This document shows positions 8,262 through 17,079 of a stretch of 64,000 nt of DNA, one piece after another. The stretch is from NCBI RefSeq assembly GCF_012911925.1, contig NZ_JAAXKY010000001.1:124001-188000 (forward strand), read 5' to 3'. This stretch comes from Pseudonocardia xinjiangensis (GTDB lineage Bacteria > Actinomycetota > Actinomycetes > Mycobacteriales > Pseudonocardiaceae). The position numbers and the translations under genes are program-made. The notes under the pieces are model-generated. The model was not told the origin of the DNA, ran no database searches, and was given only the letters and a program-made list of their open reading frames with translations. The number at the start of each line of letters is the position of its first letter. The stretch's first letter is position 1.

Positions 8262-8265
8262 CGCC

Positions 8266-8523
8266 GTGCACCACGTCGCACGCAGTCAGGTCGGCGGGCT
8301 GCGGTTCCACGACCCCCACCACTCCTACCCCACCTGGCTCGTCGACGACGGCGTCCCGCCCAACATGGTGCAGCGGGTCATGGGACGCGAACGCTCGTCC
8401 ACGACGCTGGACCGCTACGCCCGGCGCACCGACAACAGCGTCCGCATCCTCCAGGCGCTCGACGACCAGGCCGACGACGAGGACCCCGACGACCCGACGG
8501 AGCCTGTCCCCGCTCCGGCCTGA
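8266..8523 (+). pseudogene. Tyrosine recombinase (phage-type integrase) C-terminal fragment, copy 1
   Basis: An 85-codon frame carries the end of a tyrosine recombinase catalytic domain: GLRFHDPHHSYPTWLVDDG, then MVQRVMGRERSSTTLDRYARR. The expected HxLRH box reads HDPHHS, so the catalytic Arg is replaced by His. The nucleophile position is the Tyr of LDRYARR. The N-terminal arm-binding and core-binding domains are absent. A second, better-preserved copy of the same fragment lies at 15955-16167. The 3' end is native here, with an acidic Asp/Pro tail ending about 97 bp from the tRNA-derived site at 8620. It is not functional as it stands. Confidence 0.85.
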
Positions 8524-8769: not shown

Positions 8770-9847
8770 GGATTTAGTAGTCGCCCCCGAGTGTCCTCCC
8801 GGGCCCGTCGCCTGCGAGTCGCGCACCAACTTCCGGTAGACCACATCGGACAGCCGCCGTTTCAGACACCGCAGCGCCTCCTTGTGGCTCTTCCCCGCCG
8901 CACGTTTCCGCCGGTAGTACTCCCGGCCCGCGGTGTCGTGACGGATCTAGGTAATCGCCATGACATGCAGCGCATAGTTCAACTGCCGATCCCCGCCCGC
9001 GACAACCGATGCCGAACCACATCCCCAGAGGACACCGCGATCGGCGCAGAGCCGGTGTAGGACGCAAACGCCCCCGCCGAGGCGAACCGACTGATCGACC
9101 CGACCCGCGCCAAGATCTTCCCGGCCAGCATCCCACCGATGCCAAACAGCTCGGTCAGCGTCGTTCCCGACTCCCCGACCGCGGTGGTGATCTGCTCGCC
9201 GGTCGCGGCGATCCGGCCATCAAGCCGGCGGACCTCGGCAACCAGGTCCACCGCGAGCCGCCGCCGGATGGACCCGAGAACATCACGCGGCCGAACCCGA
9301 CGCAACAAGCCCGCAGCATCATCGGCAGTCAGTCCCAGATCAGCGCCACCCGGCAGCAGGTGCGCGAGCAGCACATGCAGTCGATTCACCGTCTGAGTAC
9401 GGGTCTTGACCAGGTCGTCGCGGTGCTCGGTCAGCGCCCGCAGCGCCATCGCGAGCTCGTCGAACTGCACCGACACCACCCAGAGGCCGTCCACGCGGCG
9501 ACACCCACCGAGACGGCGTCAGCCTCATCAGTCTTCCGGCCATGACCCGTCGAGAGCGCCCGCACCCGCGCGGCCAGCTTCGCCGGCACATCCAGCACCG
9601 CCAGCCCGTCGGCGAGCAGCCTGGTCGCCAACGGTGCACCCAACCCGCCCGCACCCTCGATCGCCCACCGCGACCCTGACCAGCCCCGGGCGAACCGGCG
9701 CAGTTGCCGATAACCGTCCCGATTGGCCTCCACCCGAAGCGAGGTCCGCGGCTGCAACGATCCGTCCACCGCCACCGCGGTCCAGGATCGCTTGTGCGGA
9801 TCAACCGCGATCACCACCGGACCCGAGCCAGCACTCCGACGCGACAC
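8770..9847 (-). pseudogene. IS110-family transposase, inactivated
   Basis: The minus strand gives a DEDD-type start (VVIAVDPHKRSWTAVAVDG), the middle TDEADAVSVGVAAW, then in another frame the TLTELFGIGGMLAGKILARVG helix-hairpin region and SYTGSAPIAVSSGDVVRHRLSR. The C-terminal part, with ALHVMAIT followed by IRHDTAGREYYRRKRA, needs a third frame and contains an internal TAG where relatives have CAG. So there are at least two frameshifts (near 9480 and 9000) and one nonsense change. IS110 elements lack terminal inverted repeats, so exact ends cannot be drawn. Confidence 0.85.
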
Positions 9848-11022: not shown

Positions 11023-11040
11023 TCGCGCTTAGCGCGCGCA

Positions 11041-11183
11041 GACGTTGAAGCGGAACGAATCGCCGCAGAACCCCCACCCGCGGCGATGGGCCAACACCTG
11101 CTCTGAGGTGCGCGAACGCCTGTCGACGGTTCTCGTCGCTTTGCGCTGCCGGTGGGCGTCCTGACGATCGACCGACGAACGGG
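11041..11183. repeat. Dispersed repeat, copy A
   Basis: One of three related segments (others at 13884 and 15673). Shared landmarks are GACGTTGAAGCGGAACGAAT at the left, GCGCGAACGC in the middle, TTTGCGCTGCCGGTGGGCGT, and a right end with near-tandem copies of TGACGAACG (here degraded to TGACGATCG and CGACGAACG). It begins 19 bp after the cis-prenyltransferase stop. Copy A is the most diverged of the three. Confidence 0.75.
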
Positions 11184-11971
11184 CTCGGCCATCGTCCGAC
11201 CCAAGCAGCAATGGACGTCATGGCGGTCTACCGGGAGTGGCTGCCCCTTGTTCATCTCAATCCACGAGGACGTCGCAATAACGATACCGTTCCCACCATG
11301 GGCAGAGGCAGGGCGAAGCAGAAACGTGATCATGGCCCGGTCCGGACGGCGGCAGCGCAGGTGTTCCCGCCCCCGTCGGGCCGGTCCCTCCCGCGCCGAG
11401 CGGTGGCGGTAACAAGCCGGCGCCGGACCACACTTCCGCGTGCGCAGGCACATCACCGGCCGCCGATCCTCTGCTTCAGCGGTAGTTGGTGAACCGTGTC
11501 TGACCAGCCGTTACGCGACCGCGGGCGCTCTGACCTGCCGCACAGTGTCTGCGCGTGTCGTCATGTAACGGCCAGGATTGGCGGTCTTCTGTACCCGATT
11601 TGTACCGGGAGTGCGAGACACCAGCTTGGGAACCAGCGTGTCGGCCGGTCGCACTGGGCCTGAGCTGCTCTCGCCGCCGGTCTGTCTGCGCCGCCGTTGA
11701 CCGCTGGTGACCGCCCTCAAGGCCCGTGAATGGCCCGTGGCTGAGGCGCTGACGAGCGCACGTCAGAGCGCGTATGGCATACCGCGACAGTGAGATGGAC
11801 GAGTGGGCGGCGGGTCGGCAGCTGCCCTCGACGCACCAGGACCCGGCTCGCCGTGTGGTAGCCCTCCGGGAGTTCGACGGGATGCCACACCACCAGTGGC
11901 ATCAGGGTCGCAGCCGGCCTGTAGTCGTACATCGACATGACCTCGTTGTTGCGTTGGGTATCGGTGCGCGG
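11184..11971. other. Long non-coding stretch with degenerate repeat tail
   Basis: About 790 bp with no convincing gene. At 11857-11892 it contains the second repeat motif of this island, whose minus strand would read HPVELPEGYH. Related copies are at 13561-13593 (HPIDLHEGNR) and 14172-14203 (LPVDLPEGYC). Elsewhere the distance between the two repeat motifs is about 290 bp, while here it is about 820 bp, so roughly 530 bp appears to have been inserted or recombined in. Confidence 0.5.
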
Positions 11972-12766
11972 TCAGAAAGGTTTGCCGCCCGCCGCGTCGA
12001 CCGGTTCACGGTTGTTGTTGTCATGCGGAGCCTGACCCTTGTACGCCGCGAGGGTTTCCTCTAATGGCCCATGCATGCGCATCCGGCCTTCGTCCATCCA
12101 GATGGCGGTCGTACACAGCTCTCTCAGCAGGTCGTCGACATGAGAGGCGAACACTAGGATCCCGGAGCGTTGAGCGAGGTCCACGAGCCGCTGACGTGCC
12201 TTGGCGAGGAATGCCGCGTCGATCGAACCAAGGCCTTCATCGAGGATGAGAATTTCGGGGTCGATGGCAGTCACCACGCCGACTGCGAGCCGGACTCGCA
12301 TACCGGCAGAGTAGGTGCGCAGAGGCATGCTCAGATAGTCGCCAAGCTCGGTGAACTCCGCGATGTCGTCGAACCGCTTCTGCATCTGCTTGCGAGTCAT
12401 GCCGAGGAACAGACCACGGATCGTGATGTTCTCGTAACCCGAGACTTCGGGATCCAAGCCCACGCCGAGGTCGAACACGGGCGCGACCCTGCCGAAGATC
12501 CGCGCGCTGCCCCGTGTCGGCTCGTAGATGCCGGACAACAACCGCAAGAGGGTGGACTTGCCAGCACCGTTGTGCCCCACCAGAGCTACTCGATCGCCTT
12601 CGCCCAGCGACAAAGTGATGTCCTGCAGGGCCTCGATGATCGGGACCTTCGCGCTGGTGGCGATCTTACTGCCGACCTTGCCGAGCACCTGCTTCTTGAG
12701 GGACCGGGACTTGGCGTCGAAGATCGGGAAATCGACGTAGGCGCCCCGCACGTCGATGCTCACCAT
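11972..12766 (-). CDS. ABC-2 type polysaccharide/teichoic-acid export ATPase (Wzt/TagH-like)
   Basis: Encodes 264 residues. The long N-terminal extension before Walker A (about 60 residues, including the FPIFDAKSRSLKK segment) is typical of O-antigen and teichoic acid export ATPases. Walker A is VGHNGAGKSTLLRLLSGIY, signature TYSAGMRVRLAVGVV, Walker B ILILDEGLGSID, and switch His FASHVDDLL. It would power export of an undecaprenyl-linked glycan. The partner permease and glycosyltransferases are not present, so it is an orphan in this island. The nearby cis-prenyltransferase is a functionally plausible companion, though the two genes are on opposite strands. Confidence 0.88.
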   Translation of the reverse strand: MVSIDVRGAYVDFPIFDAKSRSLKKQVLGKVGSKIATSAKVPIIEALQDITLSLGEGDRVALVGHNGAGKSTLLRLLSGIYEPTRGSARIFGRVAPVFDLGVGLDPEVSGYENITIRGLFLGMTRKQMQKRFDDIAEFTELGDYLSMPLRTYSAGMRVRLAVGVVTAIDPEILILDEGLGSIDAAFLAKARQRLVDLAQRSGILVFASHVDDLLRELCTTAIWMDEGRMRMHGPLEETLAAYKGQAPHDNNNREPVDAAGGKPF

Positions 12767-12884
12767 GCGCTACCACCCCTGCTGATCGACTGCCGTACGC
12801 GAACCAACATTATCATTCGTGTTCGGCCGGTCGGGCCGGCCACGGTCGAAGGTCGGGACCAGGCGCCCACCAGCGGGAGGTAGC

Positions 12885-13535
12885 GTGCGATCGGTGAGTG
12901 AGCGATCCGCCGACCAGGGCTTTCATCCTCCACAGCAGGCCCGCAGCCGGGAGTCCCTGCAGAAAGTGTTGGCCGCCGCTGAGCACGTGCTGGCCAGCCA
13001 GGGCATCGAGGAGTTCACCGTCGCGGCGGTCGCTGAGCAGGCGGGCATGTCGGTGGGTGCGATCTATGGCCGGTTCTCAGGCAAGGACCAGCTGCTCCAC
13101 GCCGTGAAGGACCAGTTGCTCGGACTCCTGGAGACCAGCGTCAGCGAAGCCCTTCACTCACCGGCGCCCGGGCTCAAGGGGATCATCGGCGCCTTCACCC
13201 AGGCTCTGGCGCGCACCTTCACACGCCACAACCGGATCTTCCCCGAGTTGCTCGACGGCCAGCGCACCGAAGGACGCGAGCGTGGCCTCCAAGCGCTGGC
13301 CGCAATCCAGCAAGCCTTCGCCGAAGCCGTCCAACCCTGCCTCGAGGAAGTCCAGCGACCGGACCGCGCGATGGCCATCCGCATGGCCACTCGAACAATC
13401 ATCGGCTCCTGCGTGCACCGTGCCGCCACCTGTCGATTCTGGCCCGACGACATGACCTGGAGCACGTGGGCCACCGAAACAAACGAAATGGCACTCGCCT
13501 ACCTCACTTCACCGGACGATCGAGATCAGCTATAG
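12885..13535 (+). CDS. TetR-family transcriptional regulator
   Basis: Encodes 216 residues from the GTG at 12885, preceded by GGGAGG; another GTG at 12894 is possible. The N-terminal helix-turn-helix is clear: ILAAAEHV-like segment VLAAAEHVLASQGIEEFTV, then AVAEQAGMSVGAIYGRFSG and KDQLLHAV. The all-helical C-terminal domain is not diagnostic of a ligand. It is divergent from the ABC ATPase at 11972 across about 120 bp, which makes that gene a candidate target. Typical TetR length. Confidence 0.88.
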   Translation: MRSVSERSADQGFHPPQQARSRESLQKVLAAAEHVLASQGIEEFTVAAVAEQAGMSVGAIYGRFSGKDQLLHAVKDQLLGLLETSVSEALHSPAPGLKGIIGAFTQALARTFTRHNRIFPELLDGQRTEGRERGLQALAAIQQAFAEAVQPCLEEVQRPDRAMAIRMATRTIIGSCVHRAATCRFWPDDMTWSTWATETNEMALAYLTSPDDRDQL

Positions 13536-13883
13536 AGGCGGAAAGTGTTGAGTGAGAGCCGGTTGCCCTCGTGGAGGTCGATGGGATGCCCACCATGCCC
13601 GATTGTGGGTGAACGGCCAGTTAAGAGCGTGTGGCCCGGCCGCTCCACACGGGCGACCCCGGACTCGACGAATTGTTCGCCCACGCCCTGCATGACCCGC
13701 TCCTCGCCACAGCCTGACCACACGGCCACACGGCCACACGGCCACACGGCCCCGACCGGAGACCAGCCGGAAGCCCTCGGCAATCACACCACGCTCCGCT
13801 GGCCGATCCTGACAAGTTGCCCCCGCTGGCGACAGCGCAGATTCGCGGGCGTCCGATCAGGCGCTATCGGCCTCGCGGCGCCA
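13536..13883. other. Intergenic segment with repeat fragment and CCACACGG tandem run
   Basis: No gene is recognisable. At 13561-13593 it carries a copy of the LPEG-type repeat. At about 13719-13750 an 8-base unit (CCACACGG) is repeated in tandem, about four times, a simple-sequence array inside otherwise random GC-rich DNA. Confidence 0.5.
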
Positions 13884-14026
13884 GACGTAGCGGGTGAACG
13901 AATCGGGACACGGCGCCTACCTGCGATGGCGCGGCGAGACGTCCTGTGAGCTGCGCGAACGCTCGCCGGTCGTTCTCGTCGTTTTGCGCTGCTGGTGGGC
14001 GTCCTGACGAACGTTTGACGAACGGC
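13884..14026. repeat. Dispersed repeat, copy B
   Basis: Aligned with copies A and C from GACGTAGCGGGTGAACGAAT through GCGCGAACGCTCGCCGG and TTTTGCGCTGCTGGTGGGCG. It ends in the tandem pair TGACGAACGT/TTGACGAACGG at about 14005-14025. A second motif (minus strand LPVDLPEGYC) follows at 14172-14203, about 290 bp from the left edge, the same spacing as from copy C to its neighbour. Confidence 0.78.
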
Positions 14027-14225
14027 CCGACCCGGGTGCGCACCTCACCATCACGGGCCCGTGTTGTATCCCGTCGACATGGCGCAGCCAGACCACGCGA
14101 CGCCCCCGTGCGCAGCCTCTCCACCTATCCGCCACCGGAGTCCTGCCAGGCCTGTGCCGGGGCGTCGCGCAGTAGCCCTCGGGGAGGTCGACGGGAAGCC
14201 GCACCCGGCCCCGACCGAGACGAGG

Positions 14226-14993
14226 TCAGCCCGGCAACCGGCTGGCCCGTACGAGGAGGAAAGGCGGGAGTGCGGCTCGCTGGGGTTGCTCGGCGATGAC
14301 GAGGGGGTGCGCCAGCGGCTCGGCGACCATGGTCAGGGTGAAGTCATGAGCGATGAGGGCGTTGAGATAGTGCGAGATCATCCGGTGGTGGTTGCCGGCA
14401 CGGCGCACGCCTTGTGGATTGGCGGAGCGCCAGAATCCCTCGGTGGAGTAGCTTCCGATCACTCGCTCGGCTCCGACCCAGCGCGCGTGAGGAGCCTCGA
14501 AGCACGGATGGGGCACGGTGAAGGCTAGTTGACCCCCGGGAACCAGTGCGCGCCGAATCGAGGCGATAGCGGCATTGAGATCGGGGACATTGTTGAGCGA
14601 GAGGCCAGCGGTCACCCAGTCCGCCCAGTCGTCGGCGACGGTGGCCAGGCTACATCCGTCGTCCACGCGATATGTCGCGCCGGTGGCGCCCGTCGCTTCG
14701 ATCGCGCGAGCCCGTTCGATGAGGCGGACCGTCGGATCCACCCCCACCACCTCAGCACCCCGGCTCGCGGCCGCACGTGTGATCAGGCCTTCGCCGCAAC
14801 CCAGGTCGAGCACTCGCTGCCCGCTCATGCCCATGGGCAAGACATCAACCAGCACGTCACGGGCGAACTGGTGCATCGCGGACCCTCGATCGACGTGATC
14901 GGCGTACCAGTCCGCAATGGTGTCCCAGGTATCGGCCATCGCGCTGGAGTCTACGGATGCGGTGGAGGCCCCGGTTTCAACTGGGACGTACAT
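14226..14993 (-). CDS. Class I SAM-dependent methyltransferase
   Basis: Encodes up to 255 residues. The SAM-binding motif I is RVLDLGCGEGLITRAAASRG, followed by the acidic motif EVVGVDPTVRLIERA and post-motif VTAGLSLNNVPDLNAAIASI. The C-terminal part has a FTVPHPCFEAP region seen in type-11/12 methyltransferases. Two starts are possible: ATG 14993 (chosen, with GAAGAA upstream) or ATG 14939, which begins at the better-conserved MADTWDTIADWYADHV. The substrate cannot be predicted. Its start is 26 bp from the stop of the GrpB-like gene on the same strand, so the two may be co-transcribed. Confidence 0.87.
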   Translation of the reverse strand: MYVPVETGASTASVDSSAMADTWDTIADWYADHVDRGSAMHQFARDVLVDVLPMGMSGQRVLDLGCGEGLITRAAASRGAEVVGVDPTVRLIERARAIEATGATGATYRVDDGCSLATVADDWADWVTAGLSLNNVPDLNAAIASIRRALVPGGQLAFTVPHPCFEAPHARWVGAERVIGSYSTEGFWRSANPQGVRRAGNHHRMISHYLNALIAHDFTLTMVAEPLAHPLVIAEQPQRAALPPFLLVRASRLPG

Positions 14994-15019
14994 CGCTGCA
15001 GATTCTTCAGAGCTCTGAG

Positions 15020-15589
15020 TCAGCGCTCGGGCATCCAGTTGACCGCACCGGCCCACTCCTCGGCGCGGGCAGTAATCTCGGCGATCAAGGTGCCCTTCGC
15101 GTCCGCGTAGGCGTTCATGTCCGGCCAGTCCCGCTCGGCCAGCTCGTGCTTGAGTTCGGCGTACGCCCGCCGGTCGGCTGCGTCTCGGCGGAGCCAGTCG
15201 CGGAATAGCAGGTGGCGGCGCTCCCACTCGCTACCCTGCGCACAGACGTGTACCTGCACGCTCAGATCGACAGTACGCACCATGCGGTGGCCCGGCTGGC
15301 GGACCCGCAGGTGGTAACCCGCCCGCCTCAAGGCCGGGAGATAAGACGGCTCATCCTCGACATCGGGGACGCTCAGATCAATGTCGATGATCGGCTTGGC
15401 GTCCAATCCGGGCACAGAAGTGGACCCGATGTGGTCCACACGTCGAGCAGTAGCGCCCAACGCACCGATGATCCGCTGACGCTCAGCGGCGAACTTCTCC
15501 GGCCAGGTTAGGTCGTAGGGGACAACGATGATGTCGCGCTTCTCCTGGCCACCGATCAGCTCGGTCTCGTCAGGCACGTGATCAAGCAT
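15020..15589 (-). CDS. GrpB/UPF0157 family protein (nucleotidyltransferase-fold)
   Basis: Encodes 189 residues. Opening VVPYDLTWPEKFAAERQRI is followed by the family hallmark HIGSTSVPGLDAKPIIDID, with the downstream HVCAQGSEWERRHLLFRDWLR. GrpB proteins have a nucleotidyltransferase-like fold and are often fused to or next to dephospho-CoA kinase; their reaction is unknown. ATG 15589 is chosen because homology begins within ten codons. It lies just upstream of the methyltransferase and is flanked on the other side by repeat copy C, so this pair looks like one cargo unit. Confidence 0.88.
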   Translation of the reverse strand: MLDHVPDETELIGGQEKRDIIVVPYDLTWPEKFAAERQRIIGALGATARRVDHIGSTSVPGLDAKPIIDIDLSVPDVEDEPSYLPALRRAGYHLRVRQPGHRMVRTVDLSVQVHVCAQGSEWERRHLLFRDWLRRDAADRRAYAELKHELAERDWPDMNAYADAKGTLIAEITARAEEWAGAVNWMPER

Positions 15590-15672
15590 GCCGCACCACT
15601 GCCGGGTGGACCGAGCCACCCACTGCACCGTCCGTCTGAGCGTCCTGCCTCTCGTCCGCGTCGACGAGCTTG

Positions 15673-15814
15673 GACGTTGAAGCGGAACGAATCCGGGTAG
15701 GACGCCTACCTGCGACGATGCGTCGATACCGCCCGTGAGATGCGCGAACGCTCGCCGGTGGTTCTCATCGGTTTGCGCTGCCGGTGGACGTCCTGACGAA
15801 CGATTGACGAACGG
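15673..15814. repeat. Dispersed repeat, copy C
   Basis: The best-preserved copy: it shares an uninterrupted 21-base left end with copy A and the tandem pair TGACGAACGA/TTGACGAACGG (15794-15814) with copy B. A recombinase C-terminal fragment starts about 140 bp further on, which ties the repeat to the mobile element. Confidence 0.8.
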
Positions 15815-15954
15815 CTTAGCCCCGGAGCCTTCACCACTACGGGGCCCGTGCGGCATCCCGTCGACCTGGCGCAGCCCGACCGCGCCGCACCCCGGGCGCA
15901 GCATCCCCGCCCCATACGCTGCCAAGCCTGCCAGGCCTGCGCCCGGGGTGGCGC

Positions 15955-16167
15955 GTGGTAGCCGTGCACCACGTCGCACGACACCAGGCCGGGGGGCTGC
16001 GGTTCCACGACCTCCGCCACTCCTACGCCACCTGGCTCGTCGACGACGGCGTGCCACCGAACATGGTGCAGCGGGTGATGGGACACGAACGCTCGTCCAC
16101 GACGCTGGACCTCTATACCCGGCGCACCGACAACAGCGTCCGCATCCTCCAGGCGCTCGACGACTAG
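15955..16167 (+). pseudogene. Tyrosine recombinase C-terminal fragment, copy 2
   Basis: Encodes about 70 residues nearly identical to the fragment at 8266-8523, but with the catalytic HxxR box intact (GLRFHDLRHSYATWLVDD), then MVQRVMGHERSSTTLDLYTRR with the Tyr nucleophile. All upstream domains are missing. The native acidic tail seen in copy 1 is cut off after QALDD, where an IS5-type element begins; the TAG stop is formed at that junction. So this is a truncated remnant of the island's own integrase family. Confidence 0.85.
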
Positions 16168-17079
16168 GTCGTGTCCTGTAGGTCGGTGCGCAGCCACAAC
16201 ACGATCGAGGCGATGATGATCTCGGCTCGGTAGTAGGCGGCGCGTTTGGCGTATCGGGTGGCCAGGCCCCGGAACTGCTTGAGCCGGTTGAAGCAGCGCT
16301 CGACCACGTTCCGGCCGGCGTAGATGACCTGGTCGAACGCGGGCGGGCGGCCACCGGCCGAGCCCTTCGCACGGCGATGCCGGACCTGGTCGCGGCGTTC
16401 GGGGCAGGTGAACGGGATCCGCCGCTCACGCAGCGCGGCCCGGGTGGACAGGTGCGAGTAGGCCTTGTCGGCCACGACTCGGTCCGGGCGGGTGCGGGGC
16501 CGGCCGGGTCCGTCACGCCCGACGTTGATCTGGTCGAGCATCGGCAGCAGTTGCGGGTTGTCCCCGGCCTGACCCGCGGTCAGCATGATCGACATGGGCA
16601 GGCCACGCCCGTCCACAGCGAGGTGGATCTTGCTGGTCAGCCCGCCTCGGGACCGTCCGAGGGCTTCCCCATCGACGGCGAGGTCTTCGACCCAGTCGGT
16701 GGCGCATCCCCCTTTTTGCGGGCTCCCGCCGAATGCTGGTGGGCCCGCACGTTGCTGGAGTCCACGCTGATCGTCCACTCCACGTTCCCGACCGAGTCGT
16801 CCTTGACGACCACCTGGTCGAGGATGCGTTCCCAGGTGCCGTCGGCGGTCCAGGTCCGCAGCCGCTCGTGGGCGGTCTTCCACGGCCCGTACCGATCGGG
16901 CAGGTCCCGCCACGGCGCCCCGGTGCGCAGCCCCACAGGATCGCGTTGATCACCTGACGGTGATCACGCCAGTACCGGCCCCGGCCCGCGACGGGGGTAG
17001 CAGGGGTTCGATCCGGGCCCAGGCCTTGTCGGTCAACTCACCACGACCCACCACCCGGCCATGATCAACTACCGCAGGT
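16165..17079 (-). pseudogene. IS5-family element with inactivated two-frame transposase
   Basis: Closely related to the element at 38751-39690. The left end AGGTCGTGTCCTGTAG matches that element's inverted repeat. Minus-strand pieces include GELTDKAWARIEPLLPP, then in a second frame VINAILW, then TGAPWRDLPDRYGPWKTAHE, then past an AAAAAGGGGG run GGLTSKIHLAVDGRG through VERCFNRLKQFRGLATRYA. The change at the A/G run is probably the normal -1 frameshift of this group. The two one-base losses near 16997 and 16940 are not, and they kill the N-terminus. The right inverted repeat is missing, cut by the next IS. Confidence 0.87.

Follow-up and report, generated by a model that had tools for sequence, protein, structure and literature searches.

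Probable remnants of pSAM2-type AICE ends and an associated four-way-junction palindrome in Pseudonocardia xinjiangensis

Results

A repeat array with cargo genes and integrase tails

We analysed a window of 64,000 nucleotides from Pseudonocardia xinjiangensis (contig NZ_JAAXKY010000001.1, positions 124,001 to 188,000), in which an earlier note had described a 145-bp repeat, here called M1. The repeat is real and occurs as three copies on the plus strand, with 69–80% identity to copy B, the reference. M1-A (11039–11196, repeat similarity from 11041) has 69% identity to the reference and consists of a core and an arm region; M1-B (13882–14039, similarity from 13884; 100%) has a degenerate core and an arm region, and M1-C (15671–15828, similarity from 15673; 80%) an arm region and a core with two mismatches. 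The copies share their left end, as the note had proposed, and the onset of similarity is sharp: pairwise identity among them is 0.24–0.40 in the 50 bp left of the edge and 0.62–0.80 in the first 50 bp to its right. M1-B (14005–14024) and M1-C (15794–15813) contain exact copies of the paired 9-mers TGACGAACG(N)TTGACGAACG, and M1-A (11162) has them with three mismatches; these three matches compare with a chance expectation of 0.02.

Pfam assignments place a prenyltransferase gene (PF01255; 10237–11022, plus strand) immediately left of M1-A. The A–B interval holds genes for an ABC transporter ATPase (11972–12766, minus) and a TetR-type regulator (12819–13535, plus), and the B–C interval a methyltransferase-containing open reading frame (14226–15227, minus) and a GrpB-family gene (15020–15592, minus); with two cargo genes in each, the intervals do not hold the single genes that had been claimed. 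Two integrase C-terminal tails lie on the plus strand, one at 8266–8523 (Phage_integrase, E 2.9e-5, which misses the family cut-off) and a second copy at 15964–16167; positions 15961–16171 repeat 8263–8473 at 91% identity. They were the sole matches to genes of actinomycete integrative and conjugative elements (AICEs), and the Rep, FtsK and ychF proteins searched gave none in the window.

Downstream of each M1 copy lies a second element, M2 or M2-H3, a four-way-junction palindrome with a hairpin. The fold has an outer stem of 17 pairs and an inner one of 23, together with two small side arms; the hairpin, H3, is small, stands apart and has a conserved loop. All copies in the window are on the plus strand. 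Copy B is a complete palindrome (14061–14206; model R1, 86.5 bits), and copy C (15848–15963; model match 15848–16007, 54.8 bits) is severed within its right arm and fused to the second integrase tail, which is reached where M2 stops, after about 15963, much as had been noted. The right-half motif occurs at 14171–14198 in copy B, at 11857–11884, where it is well preserved within a relic downstream of M1-A (11772–11892, 41.3 bits), and at 13561–13588, in a further right-half relic with the TetR gene to its left and M1-B to its right. The weak M2 downstream of M1-A had gone unremarked in the earlier note. The short 'LPEG' motif listed there proved to be a minus-strand reading of the M2 right half. 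Covariation in M2 is strong: 18 pairs are altered on both sides, a number reached in 0 of 500 shuffles, and a strand bias is evident in 79 G–U against 7 A–C. Rfam gave no match at the gathering score, either in the window or at nine loci, where there was one weak, unrelated match (E 0.49).

The left edge of M1 matches the 3′ end of ychF

Eighteen base pairs at the left edge of M1 form an attachment core that reads as the ychF 3′ end in reverse complement; in M1-A (11039–11056) the match to the ychF ends of G060 and G000 is exact. In the relative G019, ychF is intact (NCBIfam TIGR00092, E 2e-129; protein end ...DVVEFRFNV*) and its end recurs 2 kb away, adjoining M1, which there terminates an element remnant flanked by ychF-end repeats. 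Arm repeats of the form TTCGTCAG adjoin ychF in G060, G057 and G019, and G000 has a single unit. Beside these repeats, G060 and G019 have a reading frame of Phage_integrase type; in G057 the frame adjoining ychF and the arms encodes a helix-turn-helix protein instead of an integrase. At ychF, G060 carries an AICE whose integrase is split and which also has RepSA (PF20199, E 8e-149), an FtsK homologue and M2; its M1 is on a separate contig from this AICE. The integrase on the ychF side of G060 matches the window tails only weakly (44% over 39 amino acids). In the window genome, ychF is on a different contig from the window.

The likeness of M1 to recombinase arm sites, first suggested from the repeat itself, is thus upheld by the ychF-type core and by the arm repeats at ychF in relatives. 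M1 is very likely the end, core and arm region together, of a pSAM2-type AICE with the ychF 3′ end as its integration site. In the AICE survey PMC3218068, ychF goes unmentioned in the main text.

Two other explanations of M1 were rejected. It is not the decayed end of an ordinary gene, its left edge being the ychF attachment core and the rest an AICE arm region. Nor is it the promoter of a GIY-YIG gene: it lies upstream of one in G026 and G060, and a third relative (G028, locus L070) has no M1 match. Exact matches of 22–25 bases to query stretch 148–172 were seen in other genomes; a regular-expression search found no paired arm repeats at the eight such loci fetched (L233–L240), and we therefore treated these matches as chance rather than as M1. 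Plasmid and phage collections gave no match to the window query. For none of the M1 copies did we find a clean empty site. When related genomes were compared for empty sites, two pairs (G034 with G033, G015 with G016) had no syntenic flank.

M2-H3 has a fixed place and polarity in AICEs

Within AICEs, M2-H3 sits close to the far attachment site; cargo, FtsK and RepSA follow downstream of it and share its strand. In 16 of 20 loci the best FtsK match was downstream of M2 and on its strand, and no other arrangement was seen. Among tRNA-bounded elements, M2 was inside in five of the six tested, 163–3473 bp from the far attachment site. The element tracks a single RepSA lineage, with 35 of 48 there and 0 of 19 and 1 of 51 elsewhere. 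Two other RepSA lineages have their own M2-like versions, variants of the same architecture, at the same upstream place, in five of eight long type-I and four of five type-II loci; no version was found at the remaining three and one. M2 is absent from the short type-I RepSA loci L318 and L319, which are in near-complete genomes, even in unfiltered searches. At 53 of 95 M2 places there is no RepSA within 20 kb on the same contig. We consider M2-H3 almost certainly an AICE component.

M2 is nearly confined to Pseudonocardiaceae, with matches in 46 of 62 genomes of the genus and 54 of 100 of the family. A Pseudonocardia M2 query matched two plasmids, both from Pseudonocardia, and no phages; three RepSA plasmids of other genera (L315, L333, L334) gave unconvincing best model scores of 18.8, 19.3 and 16.3 bits.

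In some genomes M2 is dispersed. Of 16 copies examined in G072, 15 had no AICE genes in the downstream stretch, and in G111 the M2 head is present in 18 of 20 stretches. Among the G072/G111 pairs, one copy lacks the inner stem and one locus has a different segment after M2; no clean empty site was found among them. G045 has 17 copies and no RepSA match in the genome. A DUF222 match (DUF222-HNH genes) lies within 1.5 kb of 14 of the 17, and the remaining three begin 87–398 bp from a contig end. DUF222-HNH repeats, the REP13E12 type described in parts of PMC10589994 and PMC13061034, were rejected as the general partner of M2, since 30 DUF222 loci in five other genomes, eight of them from the window's own genome, contained no M2 motif.

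Discussion

Full relatives of the pSAM2 type (RepSA family) carry a tyrosine-type integrase, RepSA (PF20199) and an FtsK-type protein between direct attachment repeats, often with a GntR/UTRA regulator, whereas the window retains only ends and cargo. It has the attachment core matching a host gene end, with arm sites, but not the rep, tra (FtsK) and int genes of such an element; because its matches are limited to two integrase tails, we regard it as a relic and not as an AICE. Tandem accretion islands and CIMEs have multiple attachment ends and cargo in one orientation, with core genes lost. The window resembles them in each respect, but it is not at ychF and the boundaries of complete units cannot be traced. 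We think it probable that the segment is a graveyard in which AICE ends lie among cargo genes and that M2-H3 is a replication-type signal. Three or four ychF-type AICEs, or segments copied from them, may have piled up here and then shed int, rep and tra, so that the attachment end, M2 and cargo remained. Several observations weigh against this explanation: integrase tails are the only AICE genes matched in the window and resemble the G060 integrase weakly, ychF is on another contig, no M1 has a clean empty site, the G057 frame is a helix-turn-helix protein, some RepSA loci lack M2, and M2 also occurs without AICE genes or a nearby RepSA.

In an intact element, the excised circle would replicate by rolling circle, and the displaced strand, assumed here to be the repSA coding strand, would expose M2-H3, which could then fold and act as a signal for starting or processing that strand. 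As expected of a single-strand origin, M2-H3 is a strand-specific fold in a rolling-circle element, to judge the replication mode from RepSA. Parts of PMC4595007 and PMC4170104 describe ICEBs1 sso1 as non-coding, stem-loop rich and orientation-specific, and pIJ101 sti as the non-coding single-stranded origin of a Streptomyces rolling-circle plasmid. M2-H3 is likewise non-coding, but unlike both it is a single long four-way-junction palindrome with a hairpin, differs between RepSA lineages and is a putative origin known here from sequence. Section 7 and other parts of the survey PMC3218068 make no mention of a similar element, and a literature search found no description of M2-H3. On balance we lean slightly towards a single-stranded DNA replication signal, with a single-strand origin favoured over a double-strand origin recognised by RepSA. 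Against this, a single-strand origin need not track a Rep lineage, and a transcribed RNA would give identical covariation and polarity.

Such an RNA, made by the AICE and regulating, for example, transfer, incompatibility or host response, is an unlikely reading that still deserves weight. The covariation is strong, G–U far exceeds A–C on one strand and the small hairpin has a conserved loop; Rfam offers no family at the gathering score, although a new RNA would be missing from it. The versions differ from one RepSA lineage to the next yet occupy the same place, and a replication signal therefore fits better than an RNA.

Somewhat less probable is a double-strand origin, a cruciform nicked by RepSA as an HUH-type initiator. 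This would explain why M2 tracks one Rep lineage while others have variants with the same architecture, and section 7 of PMC3218068 predicts that two RepSA subfamilies recognise different origins; the survey describes these subfamilies as distant, and they may correspond to types I and II here. M2-H3 is, however, kilobases distant from rep, and an entire AICE subfamily, beyond Rep alone, may co-segregate. The same source quotes te Poele for a pC194-like nick site in pSAM2, and M2 therefore fits poorly as a double-strand origin.

Mobile palindromic repeats go by names such as ERIC and REP. That M2-H3 is an independently mobile repeat of this kind, carried incidentally by AICEs, is suggested by the dispersed copies in G072 and G111, the G045 copies next to DUF222-HNH genes and the variants without an inner stem; its constant orientation and position within AICEs and the match to Rep lineage make it improbable.

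An integron-like cassette array, or cis-mobilizable cassettes exchanged at the repeat, would correspond to the gene-capture array of the earlier note. In its favour are three same-strand repeats with differing genes in the intervals, and contig C250 of G000, the only place elsewhere in the genome where a segment of the array was found, shares M1-B, the methyltransferase frame and an M2 without inner stem. We nevertheless judge it very improbable: integrons have a single gene in each interval, bounded by the recombination site, whereas the intervals here hold two, homology to C250 sets in 137 bp to the left of the core, so that the shared segment does not end there, the palindromes are AICE parts whose polarity follows FtsK and RepSA, and a simple gene caller found no open reading frame between paired M2 copies in G004 or G006. 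The note's other option, in which recombination at a repeated site built an island, agrees with the ychF attachment core at the left edge and with the related arm repeats at ychF in relatives.

Returning to the replication signal, we offer only tentatively that M2-H3 and its lineage variants form a new class: a single-stranded four-way junction in rolling-circle replication, diversified with RepSA initiators, sometimes captured and multiplied by unrelated DUF222-HNH repeats, and a marker of AICE integration history in Pseudonocardiaceae. The odd repeat array is explained as AICE history, and ychF is indicated as an AICE insertion target. M2-H3 is a testable cis element that could reveal how RepSA elements start or convert the single strand, and its covariance model detects both AICEs and AICE relics in this family, in which antibiotic producers abound.

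The 145-bp repeat and the ychF target

The three-copy repeat in the window (M1), proposed in the earlier note, is real: copies A, B and C start at 11041, 13884 and 15673, all on one strand. The paired 9-mers at the right end are exact in copies B and C, and the common left end is confirmed by an identity of 0.24–0.40 in the 50 bp leftward vs 0.62–0.80 in the first 50 bp rightward. Beyond the three window copies, BLAST and motif searches revealed M1-like sequence elsewhere in the same genome, on contig C250, and in five other genomes (G037, G019, G026, G060 and G057). A profile built from these nine M1-like sequences added one place among the loci searched, L054 of G042 (E 1.4e-25), to which L100 also refers.

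On the minus strand, the left edge of M1 reads as ...FRFNV, the same peptide with which an intact ychF gene (TIGR00092) about 2 kb away ends in G019. A remnant in this genome is enclosed by the ychF end and its repeat; an integrase tail adjoins ychF (Phage_integrase, E 3.8e-6), and M1 lies opposite ychF together with M2, a four-way-junction palindrome. G060 has an actinomycete integrative and conjugative element (AICE) at ychF, with a two-piece integrase (one piece matches Phage_integrase), the replication initiator RepSA (Pfam E 8e-149; 427 bits with the NCBIfam RepSA model, below its cut-off of 700), a UTRA-domain regulator and M2. Its homologue of the transfer protein FtsK was recognized solely through similarity to locus L038 (FtsK_SpoIIIE, E 8e-9) and itself matched nothing in Pfam or NCBIfam. 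M1 with its core, which we infer to be the far end of this AICE, is on a separate contig of G060 (L050). Repeat arms of TTCGTCAG adjoin ychF in G060, G019 and G057 (where the neighbouring frame encodes a helix-turn-helix protein), and a single unit remains beside ychF in the genome that contains the window. Our conclusion is that M1 forms the far end of elements that target ychF. As ychF is outside the window, on contig C142, we conclude that the window copies are relics away from their usual target. The repeat array is an island of AICE relics.

The window also holds a relic of an IS110-family transposase at 8979–9494 (PF02371, E 1.9e-11) and, directly after the second integrase tail, a DDE transposase at 16164–16936 (PF01609). 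A GIY-YIG-domain gene (PF20815) starts about 40 bp past M1 in two genomes (L041, 9228–9785; L050, 142–684). A different insert lies between ychF and a second core copy in G008 and G013 (L263 and L264); perhaps ychF serves as a general hotspot for integration in Pseudonocardia. The L263 insert holds a 572-amino-acid Schlafen AlbA_2-type open reading frame.

A conserved structure beside the repeat

M2 lies to the right of each M1 in the window, complete at B, cut at C and weak at A; a motif search of the window found no H3, a separate small hairpin. In an alignment of copies from 28 loci, M2 is made up of an outer stem of 17 pairs, two small arms and a long inner stem, and is followed by a linker and the small hairpin with the loop GGCGA. 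Across 27 sequences, 97.1% of cells pair in the combined structure (M2–H3) and 18 pairs are altered on both sides, the structure being derived from the same alignment that was used for this covariation test. None of 500 shuffles attained any of the five measures used, and sliding the partners out of register reduced pairing to 38–50%. The stems contain 79 G-U cells vs 7 A-C cells, with two pairs giving 43 of the G-U cells; the structure is therefore maintained on one strand.

M2 was present in 46 of 62 sampled genomes of the genus and, at family level, in 54 of 100 genomes, covering 30 of 46 genera; at order level it was present in 10 of 150, including a single genome from outside the family. 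When one genome from each of 84,980 species was scanned with a 32-letter pattern in which three letters were two-way, 22 stretches matched, every one named Pseudonocardia.

M2 in AICEs

We chose 20 M2 loci (L272–L291) from the model matches by the length of their contigs, blind to their surroundings, and searched them with AICE proteins. In 16 of the 20, the top FtsK match of the locus was about 4–10 kb downstream of M2 on the same strand, and in none was it upstream or on the opposite strand; L273, L276, L289 and L290 had no downstream match. In other genera, L311, L313 and L314 likewise have FtsK and RepSA; L312 does not. Eight of 25 scanned loci contain a tRNA gene, which in six is at the integrase end. 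Five of these six have a repeat of the tRNA end (L313 has none within the stretch examined), and M2 is inside all five elements, 163, 324, 813, 2,679 and 3,473 bp from that repeat. M2 thus belongs to AICEs.

On a Pseudonocardia plasmid (L316, 12331–15752), defence-type cargo (AIPR and N-6 methylase genes) directly follows M2–H3. An AICE-like order (integrase, rep, FtsK) recurs along L334, a 27.8-kb Streptomyces formicae plasmid record; either the units are in tandem or the assembly has created the repetition.

Two groups of RepSA matches are seen in the genus, 67 that score high and at least 52 that score lower, with at least 300 bits; 51 of the latter were entered. M2 was upstream within 20 kb on the same strand in at least 35 of 48 short type-I RepSA genes, in none of 19 long type-I genes among the M2 matches listed, and in at least 1 of 51 type-II genes. 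In at least three further pairs M2 is downstream, again on the same strand; no opposite-strand pairs occur among the matches listed. At 53 of the 95 M2 places listed, no RepSA lies within 20 kb on the contig, which contig ends may explain in some cases. With filters off, diverged M2 versions appeared in 4 of 5 type-II loci (51–66 bits) and 5 of 8 long type-I loci (22–32 bits, individually weak); two short type-I loci without M2 still had none. All nine lineage versions are 5.2–9.4 kb upstream of rep and share the M2 layout while differing in sequence, with G-U vs A-C ratios of 24:0 and 25:8. The minus strand scores higher for the long type-I version of L320, yet its plus strand aligns with the others of this type.

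M2 without AICE genes

Of 16 M2 copies examined in G072, with a sharp left edge and in many cases degenerate tandem-repeat tails, just one had a downstream AICE match. The M2 head is present in 18 of 20 stretches of G111. Such dispersed M2–H3 copies with degenerate tails are seen at L133–L148 (G072) and L183–L202 (G111); at L183, an alpha/beta-hydrolase gene (PF08386) takes the place of the H3 and tail of G072. G045 has 17 copies (L109–L124), contained in a repeat that measures about 2 kb at most, with stems preserved and loops strongly variable. A DUF222 match lies within 1.5 kb of 14 of these, the remaining three being at contig ends; all four proteins tested were DUF222-HNH by Pfam, and the genome has no RepSA match. 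The inner stem is missing from some copies (C250 and several in G111). Because many non-AICE copies preserve the stems, M2 may exist or function in its own right.

A possible role in replication

The structured strand of M2–H3 is the sense strand of repSA. In rolling-circle replication, this strand is expected to be displaced. The displaced strand would then bear the folded M2–H3, as expected of a single-strand origin. Known single-strand origins include ICEBs1 sso1, which is stem-loop based and orientation-specific (PMC4595007), and sti of pIJ101 (PMC4170104). Less probably, M2–H3 is the double-strand origin of RepSA elements, a reading with which the match between M2 presence and Rep lineage is compatible; an AICE survey has two RepSA subfamilies expected to recognize different origins (PMC3218068). 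It may also be a transcribed RNA.

Titles and abstract starts of the open-access literature on Pseudonocardia integrons, AICEs/pSAM2, single-strand origins, pMEA300/pMEA100, ychF attB, RepSA origins and actinomycete integrative stem-loops contained no description of M2–H3, and no open-access paper was found that treats Pseudonocardia and AICEs together; on this literature alone, M2–H3 is undescribed. The repeat array itself is of a known kind, AICE relics; what may be new is the conserved structure that accompanies the repeat.
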